64,000 bases of DNA, taken from Rhodococcus tukisamuensis NBRC 100609. Lineage in GTDB: Bacteria; Actinomycetota; Actinomycetes; Mycobacteriales; Mycobacteriaceae. The translations under genes were made by a program, and so were the position numbers. The stretch spans positions 1 through 64,000 of the forward strand of contig NZ_BCXG01000002.1 in the NCBI RefSeq assembly GCF_001894985.1, given 5' to 3'. Shown here one piece after another: positions 16,851-18,051 of this stretch (its first letter is position 1; every line of letters starts with the position of its first letter). The notes beneath the pieces are model-generated. The model was not told the DNA's origin, searched no databases, and was given only the letters and a program-made list of their open reading frames with translations.

Positions 16851-16913
16851 CGCCGAGTGTGCACTTCTGTCCGTGCGCACTCGGCCGACGCACCCGCAAG
16901 TGCACTCTCGGCG
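16851..16913. repeat. 63-bp dispersed palindromic element, copy A
   Basis: An element with near-perfect terminal inverted repeats (cgccgagtgtgcact against agtgcactctcggcg; 14 of 15 pairs) and a conserved ccgacgc centre. It has exactly the same length as two other copies in this window (17942-18004 and 34492-34554). It sits 15 bp after the hydrolase stop codon and could also act as a transcript end. Confidence 0.75.
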
Positions 16914-16943: not shown

Positions 16944-16993
16944 ATTGCGGAACCTGTCCGCCGACCGGGTGAGCCGTCCGCCAGTCTCGAGGG

Positions 16994-17385
16994 ATGGGGG
17001 AATTCGATGAACCGTTTCCGGGAGGTGTCGCCGTCGCGACGGGCGCACTGACCGATCGCCAGTTGCGCCACGACACACCCGGCTGCATCGAGATGTCTAC
17101 ATCACCAAGGGAATTGGCCTCGGCGCCCTGATCCGGGCGCGGGCCGCCGAGACGCTCGACGCGCTCTGCAACGCCACCGGCACGACGCCCTCCCCGATCG
17201 CGGCCGTGCCCGAGAAGCACCGTGACACAAGGGGAATCGTGCAGCTCCGCCAGGTCCTCGAACTGGTCGACGACGGACTGCCGCGGCCGCAGACACAGGT
17301 CGAGATCCGGGACCGGCCCGGACGGATCTTCGCCCGCTCGGACGTGGGCTGGGCACGCGGAAGGTGCTCGTCGAGTACGACGGTG
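16994..17385 (+). pseudogene. Decayed DUF559/AbiEi-type endonuclease-domain gene
   Basis: The remains lie in three frames. From ATG 16994 the frame reads MGEFDEPFPGG...LTDRQLRHD, the usual start of this rhodococcal/mycobacterial family. After about 17072 the match shifts frame to LHRDVYITKGIGLG, jumps over what is normally ~90 residues to ALCNATG...RGIVQLRQVLELVDDG, loses another short block, and continues as PRPQTQVEIRDRPGRIF. Near 17355 it shifts again to KVLVEYDGA. So at least two frameshifts and two internal deletions are present. Intact relatives have an N-terminal winged-helix-like part and a C-terminal DUF559 nuclease-like fold. Recognition is from memory of the family, not a search. 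Confidence 0.7.
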
Positions 17386-17503
17386 CCCGTACCTGCACAC
17401 TCGGGCCGACGCGCCGCGGAACGATACCGAAGTGCGGATGTCGCTACCGTGCTGTAGCGTTCTCGCCTAACCACCGATGCCTAGAGGAAAGGGACGGCCC
17501 ACA

Positions 17504-17617
17504 GTGAAGCAGTTTGCGCATTCTTGCGTTGCACATTTCTACGTTGCACGCAGCGGCGCCGTACCCATGTGGCTCTGCCACTCCCAGGCAATGCGTGGAC
17601 CCCGAGAACACTCCTGA
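17504..17617 (+). CDS. Putative 37-residue leader peptide
   Basis: A short frame starting at GTG and reading MKQFAHSCVAHFYV...CHSQAMRGPREHS. Its first half uses AT-rich codons (ttt, cat, tct, gtt, gca) unlike the genes around it. AGAGGAAAGGG lies upstream, though 16-20 nt from the GTG. The end of the frame overlaps the left arm of a hairpin, which in turn competes with a terminator, the layout of an attenuator leader. It holds four His and two Cys codons but no run of one amino acid, so the sensed signal is unclear. No homolog is recognised. Confidence 0.5.
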   Translation: MKQFAHSCVAHFYVARSGAVPMWLCHSQAMRGPREHS

Positions 17618-17670
17618 CGTAACGGAACTGTTCTCGGCACCCGGGCAATCGCCCCGGGTGCCGTTCTTCT
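17602..17670 (+). promoter_or_regulatory. Candidate transcription attenuator (competing hairpins)
   Basis: Hairpin 1 pairs ccgagaaca (17602-17610) with tgttctcgg (17629-17637). Hairpin 2, a terminator, pairs cggcacccggg (17635-17645) with cccgggtgccg (17653-17663) and is followed by ttcttct. The two share bases 17635-17637. A ribosome on the leader stop codon (17615-17617) would cover the left arm of hairpin 1 and favour the terminator; a ribosome held upstream would leave hairpin 1 free. The downstream gene is the 63-residue protein at 17741. Confidence 0.6.
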
Positions 17671-17740
17671 AGCTACCCCAAACTTCTCGAGATCGTCGCT
17701 ACCGAAAGCACTCTCGAAACTGCACAACAAGGAGATCCAC

Positions 17741-17932
17741 ATGAAGCTTCGTATCCACACCCTGGCCGCGGTCCCGCCGCTGGCCGACCTGCCCGCCGAC
17801 CTCTCCGGCCAGGTCATCACCCTCGACCTGTCGCACACCGACACCCACCAGCGGGCCGCGGCCACCGACCTGGCCCGCGAACTGCTCGACCGCGGCGCCG
17901 CCCGCATCGTGATCTCCGGGTCGGCCGCCTGA
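17741..17932 (+). CDS. Orphan 63-residue small protein behind the attenuator
   Basis: A short protein MKLRIHTLAAVPPLADLPADL... ending RGAARIVISGSAA, with no signal peptide, membrane segment or metal motif. AAGGAGATCCAC gives an ideal ribosome-binding site, and codon use is typical of the GC-rich host, so I regard it as real. The pattern strand-helix-strand (QVITLDLS, ATDLARELLDRG, ARIVISG) suggests a small alpha/beta fold. It is the only gene between the attenuator and the convergent purH. No family is recognised. Confidence 0.65.
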   Translation: MKLRIHTLAAVPPLADLPADLSGQVITLDLSHTDTHQRAAATDLARELLDRGAARIVISGSAA

Positions 17933-17941
17933 CCTCAGTCC

Positions 17942-18004
17942 GCGCGAGTGTGCACCTTCCGGGGCGTCGGACCAGGAGAAACGCCGAGAGGCGCACACTC
18001 GACG
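17942..18004. repeat. 63-bp dispersed palindromic element, copy C (inverted)
   Basis: In reverse complement this copy aligns without gaps to copy B (34492-34554) with 47 of 63 identical positions by hand count. It keeps the cgagtgtgc and tgcacactcg ends and the ccgacgc centre. It starts 9 bp after the small-protein stop codon and overlaps the hairpin at 17984-18026. Confidence 0.75.
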
Positions 18005-18026
18005 GAATCGAGCGCGCACCTCTCGG
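17984..18026. terminator. Likely bidirectional terminator between the small gene and purH
   Basis: Left arm ccgagaggcgcacactcga (17984-18002) pairs with tcgagcgcgcacctctcgg (18008-18026) at 16 of 19 positions, with a 5-nt loop. It lies between two convergent genes and uses part of repeat copy C. Confidence 0.7.
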
Positions 18027-18051
18027 CGAACGATTTGGACTGACGGTCAGG

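Follow-up and report, generated by a model that had tools for sequence, protein, structure and literature searches.

A leader frame, two hairpins and a small gene beside purH

The window, meaning the whole 64,000-nucleotide stretch of Rhodococcus tukisamuensis NBRC 100609 DNA that was analyzed, carries a short leader open reading frame (ORF), two hairpins and a small gene on its plus strand. A -10-like box of a probable promoter, TAGCGT, is predicted from the sequence at 17455 to 17460 and is followed by the Shine-Dalgarno region of the leader, AGGAAAGGGACGG (17485 to 17497), which is also the left arm of a candidate hairpin designated P0. The leader ORF, VKQFAHSCVAHFYVARSGAVPMWLCHSQAMRGPREHS (17504 to 17617), has a GTG start and comprises 37 codons (17504 to 17614) and a TGA stop codon (17615 to 17617). 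It contains an in-frame tandem repeat of 30 nt (two units of 15 nt; 17519 to 17548), which adds the residues HSCVA and HFYVA, and the Val-Pro codons CCGTACCC (17559 to 17566; Val is GTA), identified as the right arm of P0 by their complementarity to the Shine-Dalgarno region. A small hairpin, GUGGC-UCU-GCCAC, covers Trp and His codons at 17569 to 17581 in the minimum-energy fold, and hairpins resembling it were also present in the folds of two other loci (L003 and L063). Its His codon CAC (17579 to 17581), the proposed control codon, is located 8 codons before the CGA codon of the first of the two hairpins.

This hairpin, P1 (17602 to 17637), was defined from folding and alignment and is the proposed partial antiterminator. 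Its arms are CCGAGAAC (17602 to 17609) and GTTCTCGG (17630 to 17637); the left arm overlies Pro-Arg-Glu codons and the leader stop codon falls in the loop. The second hairpin, T (17635 to 17670), is a terminator with an 11-bp stem (17635 to 17663) followed by the T-rich tail TTCTTCT (17664 to 17670). The Shine-Dalgarno sequence AAGGAG (17729 to 17734) precedes the proposed controlled gene (17741 to 17932), whose 63 codons encode an orphan protein ending in Ser-Ala-Ala. On the 3' side of this gene lies purH in the convergent orientation, and between the two is a long inverted repeat (17982 to 18028) that is terminator-like on the minus strand and is probably a 3' terminator common to both genes. 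The leader frame, both hairpins and the 63-residue gene were thus all found where the initial annotation had placed them. On folding, a 281-nt region was more stable than dinucleotide shuffles (z = -2.73, with 1 of 200 shuffles as good); the minimum-energy fold holds both P1 and T.

Orthologs of the small protein range from 63 to 90 residues, excluding L059, whose start codon was assigned at a point too far downstream, and L062, which has a longer frame, and consist of a conserved core and a variable tail. The protein ends in Ala-Ala in 61 of 62 orthologs, compared with none of the 33 long reference ORFs of the window; the exception is L062, whose much longer frame is apparently shifted near its end. 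Searches of Pfam, NCBIfam, PHROGs and the PDB returned no accepted family, in agreement with the earlier description of the product as an unknown protein. Weak PDB matches (best E value, 0.016, to designed TIM barrels) were not credited, and a STAS fold was rejected, as only one of 23 members matched Pfam STAS_2, at an E value of 0.078, and a profile-profile comparison with five STAS_2 matches from the same genome gave a probability of 0.7 out of 100. An Ala-Ala end is a feature of ssrA-type degrons, which are Clp-type degradation signals; because of this resemblance, the small protein is probably short-lived.

Distribution and conservation of the unit

Genomes of the same family and order were searched for the small protein. 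Matches with an E value of 0.001 or better were obtained in 64 of 401 family genomes before false ones were removed; two genomes (L067 and L068) and one second match (L069) were rejected, as there was no purH match nearby. The small gene was retained in 62 genomes from five genera, g1 (n = 6), g10 (n = 12), g23 (n = 25), g25 (n = 1) and g27 (n = 18). Three entries (L006, L010 and L011) were left out as duplicates of L003, L004 and L005, having a protein identical to that of their counterpart; for L006 and L010, the contig is also equal in length. Among 397 genomes of the order, strong protein matches were found in four, all within the same five genera, while weak matches in four further genomes (L074 to L077; E values, 1e-4 to 9e-4) were excluded from the ortholog set. 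Three relatives with species names, R. oryzae, R. triatomae and R. marinonascens, came out of a search of genome contigs as carriers of the unit.

The order -10-like box, leader ORF, P1, T and small gene was found in all 62 genomes with the small gene, as was the location, an orthologous site at which a convergent purH adjoins the small gene. Leaders were found by script in 57 of the 62 loci and set by hand from the sequence in five (L004, L009, L036, L041 and L047); the leader start of L034 was corrected by hand. A covariance model of P1 and T was built from 50 distinct sequences, the window element among them. It matched the window element with an E value of 9.7e-19, the next match in the same genome having an E value of 0.006, and, of 201 family genomes, 45 gave a single match to it at an E value below 1e-14, none of these lying outside the five genera; these tallies describe distribution and are not independent proof of the element, since the same sequences trained the model. 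By genus, the element was present in 25 of 28 genomes of g23, 18 of 18 of g27, 12 of 14 of g10 and 6 of 6 of g1. Five of the weaker covariance-model matches (best E value, 3.8e-8) were inspected and rejected as extra copies, as they look like the 3'-end terminators of other genes or chance hairpins.

Genomes lacking the element were of several kinds. In G105 and G117, only 21 nt separate the match to the neighboring hydrolase gene from the purH match. Other DNA lies beside purH in G052 and G068, and no purH match was obtained in G277, a genome that is 74% complete. The P1 and T motifs were not found in the five element-less loci inspected, which included one genome of g22. Because leader and gene are jointly present in 62 of 62 genomes and jointly absent at the empty sites, they appear to have been gained or lost together. 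The arrangement of frame, hairpins and small gene is not a product of chance. At the G052 and G068 sites (both g23; L113 and L112, respectively), the sequence between the hydrolase gene and purH seems to hold another gene, transcribed from the other strand.

A search for TANN(G/A)T 75 to 35 nt before the leader start gave a match at all 62 loci, at -45 to -59, and in 29 of 29 cluster representatives, compared with a mean of 4.9 (maximum, 11) when the stretches were shuffled. At 47 of the 62 loci, no more than 46 nt separate T from the small gene, a count in which the spacer of L059 is too long because of its misplaced gene start. Transcription starting downstream of 17670, which had been named as evidence against attenuation, therefore appears unlikely as a general case, as judged from the promoter-like box and these spacings. 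In the window itself, however, the gap is 77 nt, so spacing alone has no power to exclude a local promoter there. By eye, a loose block (GATGTCG, GGTGCGA or GATGCGC) was seen on the 5' side of the -10-like box in many of the 29 representatives; it may be an unusual -35 element or an operator.

Constraints on the leader and its hairpins

Leaders vary from 24 to 51 codons across the 62 loci, and in every one of them the start codon and the CGA of P1 share a reading frame. The ATG of the relatives aligns with the GTG at 17504, while the window has an ATG in the same frame farther upstream, at 17477. At each of the 62 loci, the stop codon lies 0 to 18 nt beyond the point where the left-arm CGAGA begins (6, 9, 12 and 18 nt in 34, 12, 7 and 8 loci, respectively, and 0 nt in one locus, in which CGA has been turned into TGA) and 14 to 31 nt before T (median, 22 nt; window, 18 nt), so that a terminating ribosome would mask P1 and not T. 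In L045 (G172), where the CGA of P1 has become TGA, the leader ends early, yet T is intact and P1 largely so.

Pairs of leaders of equal length differing at no more than 30% of positions were compared. The 130 pairs, which are not independent, showed 278 synonymous and 692 nonsynonymous codon changes, with 370, 415 and 447 substitutions at codon positions 1, 2 and 3, respectively. Thus, the make-up of the leader is kept and not its exact peptide, and with the peptide hardly constrained, the pattern is more readily reconciled with a regulatory leader than with an arrest peptide of fixed sequence or a small protein that has a function itself. The sequence evidence suggests that the leader is translated.

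Relative to the 33 long ORFs of the window, and with weighting over 29 peptide clusters, the leaders are enriched in His (5.8-fold), Cys (3.2-fold), Lys (2.9-fold), Trp (2.6-fold), Phe (2.4-fold) and Met (2.2-fold) and depleted in Leu, Gly, Asp and Glu; Tyr, Asn, Ile and Gln, which are also rare or AT leaning, were not enriched. The number of clusters above the reference was 29 of 29 for His, 27 for Lys, 26 each for Phe and Met, 25 for Trp and 21 for Cys. Much of this enrichment is specific to the reading frame. Per 100 codons, frame 0 compared with frames 1 and 2 contains 10.7 versus 3.2 and 6.2 His codons, 3.4 versus 0.2 and 0.1 Trp codons, 5.3 versus 0.5 and 0.7 Lys codons and 4.6 versus 0.2 and 1.1 GTA codons; Phe and Met are also enriched frame-specifically, whereas Cys (2.7 versus 2.9 and 2.9), GCA and CTT are not. 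GTA accounts for 64% of leader Val codons, compared with 2% in the reference, and the rare codons GTA, CTT, GCA and TTT are used in leaders across the family. The initial annotation had regarded the AT-rich first half of the leader as foreign to its neighborhood. In part this reflects the tandem repeat at 17519 to 17548, which is absent from the aligned relatives and supplies two extra His codons, and in part the family-wide use of rare codons, among which GTA is frame-specific and GCA and CTT are not.

A His codon is located upstream of P1 in all 62 leaders, and in 19 of the 29 cluster representatives one lies 7 to 8 codons before the CGA of P1; among 5,000 residue shuffles, the best two-position window held a mean of 10.0 and at most 17. 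Because clusters of one genus have common ancestry, the 29 do not count as independent events. The last His is 6 to 9 codons before CGA in 23 of 29 representatives. No His was found at -7 or -8 in the other 10 (L004, L007, L012, L021, L022, L026, L027, L029, L036 and L037), which include L026, the sole g25 locus. There is no general run of His codons, as HH or HxH occurs in only 29 of 62 leaders; L058 has a run of four. With the -7/-8 His codon in the A site of a ribosome, the left arm of P1 would lie approximately 18 to 24 nt ahead and be just free.

The relationship between P1 and T was examined in 49 distinct sequences. The paired bases of the two hairpins overlap by 3 in 39 sequences and by 2 in 10, at the lower end of the T stem adjoining the U tract, and their mean energies are -17.3 kcal/mol (P1) and -24.6 kcal/mol (T). 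When P1 is free to form, the mean modeled probability of the basal G-C pair of T is 0.66, that of the next pair 0.92 and that of the core 0.99; when a ribosome masks the stop region in silico, the first two rise to means of 0.97 and 0.99. Masking had little effect in 2 of the 49 sequences (L058 and L060), the basal pair remaining at about 0.5 either way. A scan of stall positions at 25 of the 62 loci revealed no conserved antiterminator that removes the core of T; stall positions that brought the core probability to less than 0.3 occurred only in L004, L005, L012, L021 and L045, with no evident common pattern, and for two of these the core was low even when the full leader was folded with no ribosome (0.13 for L021 and 0.54 for L004). 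P1 thus competes with T for its closing pairs only, and the loss of these two to three pairs would have to suffice to weaken the terminator. The proposal that the hairpins are mutually exclusive was not confirmed in a strict sense, as only two to three bases at the base of T are shared and P1 and T stand side by side in both the minimum-energy fold of the window and the consensus fold.

Conservation of the two stems, which had been suggested as a check together with covariation, is strong. In the alignment of 50 distinct sequences, an intrinsic-terminator stem is present in every one and the seven-pair lower stem of T is kept in 99.7% of cells; overall, 94.8% of stem cells pair, compared with 26 to 57% with slid partners, and 20 columns are invariant. 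Compensatory covariation, in contrast, was not above that of shuffles (0.092 versus 0.091, with one cell changed on both sides), because the P1 and T stems hardly vary. The variable inner stem of P1 folded better than its own shuffles at a P value of 0.05 or less in 12 of 29 representatives (mean z, -1.7), which gives it moderate support.

Support for P0 is likewise moderate. In this candidate hairpin, the Val-Pro codons can pair with the leader's Shine-Dalgarno region, as CCGUACC with GGUACGG in many lineages, and the mean pairing probability is 0.68, compared with 0.43 when codons are shuffled; the shuffle mean was exceeded at 58 of the 62 loci. In a duplex test, 11 of 29 representatives reached a P value of 0.05 or less (mean z, -1.6), the window having a value of 0.06. 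Such pairing would hinder reinitiation and leave the decision to the ribosome that loads first and is coupled to RNA polymerase.

A partial attenuator and its alternatives

The locus is probably best explained as a ribosome-dependent transcription attenuator. Transcription would start upstream of the leader ORF, and a ribosome reaching the leader stop would cover the left arm of P1, leaving T complete, so that RNA polymerase stops. A ribosome slowed farther upstream, most plausibly at His codons, such as the one 7 to 8 codons before P1, and at other rare codons, would allow P1 to form first and to take two to three of the lowest base pairs of T, those adjoining the U tract; the weakened terminator would then permit read-through into the small gene. 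With P0 limiting reinitiation, the first ribosome would set the outcome, and the Ala-Ala-tailed orphan protein may be made in bursts and quickly removed. The attenuation first proposed for this locus is thus favored by the frame, the stop position, the terminator, the promoter-like box and the co-occurrence of leader and gene, but not by the search of 25 loci for a full antiterminator or by covariation. The system would work like a classical attenuator and yet be a variant of it, since mutual exclusion is only partial.

The hisL-type and tryptophan attenuators of proteobacteria have a short translated leader with regulatory codons, and in the actinobacterial whiB7/wblC leaders a ribosome stalled on an upstream ORF (uORF) leads to read-through into a regulator gene. 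The present unit resembles hisL-type and trp attenuators in its short leader, probably translated, in having putative regulatory codons a little way ahead of a hairpin and a stop codon at the first hairpin arm, and in the intrinsic terminator that follows. It differs from hisL in that it has no general His run and no histidine biosynthesis, transport or hisS gene downstream, and from both in that no his or trp gene follows and the overlap of antiterminator and T is two to three bases. Unlike whiB7/wblC, its downstream gene has no WhiB match in Pfam or NCBIfam. A histidine attenuator is described in the excerpted text of PMC9413887, and whiB7 is mentioned in that of PMC13236596, according to which, at Mycobacterium tuberculosis ilvB1, a ribosome at the stop codon masks about 26 nt and prevents the antiterminator. 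In Corynebacterium, the lower portion of the terminator stem is sequestered by the ilvB-II antiterminator (excerpt of PMC10272879), compared with the last two to three pairs here. As far as these excerpts go, the ilvB-II motif and ilvB1 resemble the present unit in having an actinobacterial uORF followed by a terminator, but they have branched-chain codons before a biosynthetic operon where this unit has His-biased mixed codons before an orphan small gene. The duf1127_1 locus of Sinorhizobium meliloti, as excerpted from PMC12218461, also has a translated uORF before a small-protein gene of unclear function and responds to poor translation, and the start region of its uORF can be masked by RNA structure; it is, however, Gram negative and has no intrinsic terminator, probably depending on Rho, where this unit has T. 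DUF1127, the family of the duf1127_1 product, was not among the matches in the Pfam scan of the small protein. Seliverstov et al. (2005) treat trp, cys, ilv, leu and ileS leaders in the excerpted part of PMC1262725, and no paper on this locus was among the matches listed in a search of open-licence PMC literature.

The signal is less clear than the architecture. A bias toward sensing His is favored, with general slow translation as a close rival, and His alone may not be the signal, because Lys, Trp, Phe, Met and Cys are enriched too. A whiB7/wblC- or erm-type sensor of general translation stress, whose rare-codon, basic and aromatic leader slows ribosomes nonspecifically so that ribosome-targeting antibiotics or general starvation, not histidine, cause read-through, is a real possibility that we nevertheless consider somewhat doubtful. 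It would account for an enrichment that spans H, C, K, W, F and M and the codons GTA, CTT, GCA and TTT, and it has a counterpart in the S. meliloti duf1127 uORF, which senses translation inefficiency upstream of a small-protein gene (excerpt of PMC12218461), but His is the most enriched residue, lies above the reference in every cluster and has a preferred position, and Tyr, Asn, Ile and Gln show no enrichment. Control could also be mixed, the leader exposing or hiding a Rho site in addition to T. The excess of C over G in the leader (33.9 to 25.0%) and spacer (37.9 to 18.8%) would suit Rho, as would the uORF case ascribed to Rho in the excerpt of PMC12218461; since the small gene also has more C than G (39.3 to 28.5%) and all 50 distinct sequences have the stem of an intrinsic terminator, we consider this decidedly unlikely.

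Two readings dispense with translational control altogether. The RNA might bind a protein or metabolite, as a riboswitch or a T-box would, or act as a small RNA, with the near-invariant TTCTCGGGCACC as the binding or seed sequence; the P1 and T sequences are indeed far more constant than pairing needs, as their invariant columns show, and covariation is at the level of shuffles, but a frame kept in all loci, with frame-specific codons, and an Rfam scan of the 64-kb window that gave only a tRNA at gathering thresholds make this very unlikely. Alternatively, the leader could be a normal gene for a small protein, with T as its 3' terminator, and a separate promoter could drive the 63-residue gene; this is, in our judgment, most improbable: although T is strong, P1 and T coexist in folds and the 77-nt gap of the window leaves room for a promoter, the peptide is not conserved (278 synonymous to 692 nonsynonymous changes), the gap is mostly short elsewhere (46 nt or less in 47 of 62 loci), leader and gene occur together in 62 of 62 genomes and are both missing at two tight empty sites, and the stop codon is tied to P1 throughout.

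If the unit is an attenuator as proposed, its interest lies in several features. The actinobacterial attenuators in the excerpts cited above control amino acid operons or resistance regulators, while this one precedes a gene family for which no function was found. The unit is held at one syntenic site across five genera and predicts when the small gene is made, and its fixed overlap of two to three bases with the lower end of the terminator would allow the minimal size of an antiterminator to be examined in a natural setting. Were the response His specific, the leader would sense histidine without belonging to a his operon. The enzyme encoded by purH recycles AICAR, a by-product of histidine synthesis. 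It is conceivable, though unlikely, that a His-biased attenuator outside the his genes, responding to the supply of His-tRNA along with other rare residues and acting through an antiterminator that affects only the last 2 to 3 bp of the terminator, releases bursts of a short-lived, Ala-Ala-tailed regulator that couples histidine supply to the purine pathway; the putative link of the small protein to purH comes from synteny alone.

Upstream of the promoter, the region from 16990 to 17460 contains an apparent decayed gene, which we take to be of the DUF559 type. The stretch upstream of the unit in L003 gave tblastn matches to this decayed gene, though translated in a frame that looks wrong. A 9-mer, GAGTGTGCA, occurs five times in the window when both strands are counted (at 16855, 17394, 17946, 34496 and 34542), compared with 0.68 expected; it was also found four times in L003 (at 1658, 2677, 3203 and 3268) and not in L004 or L005, and it may be part of a lineage repeat.
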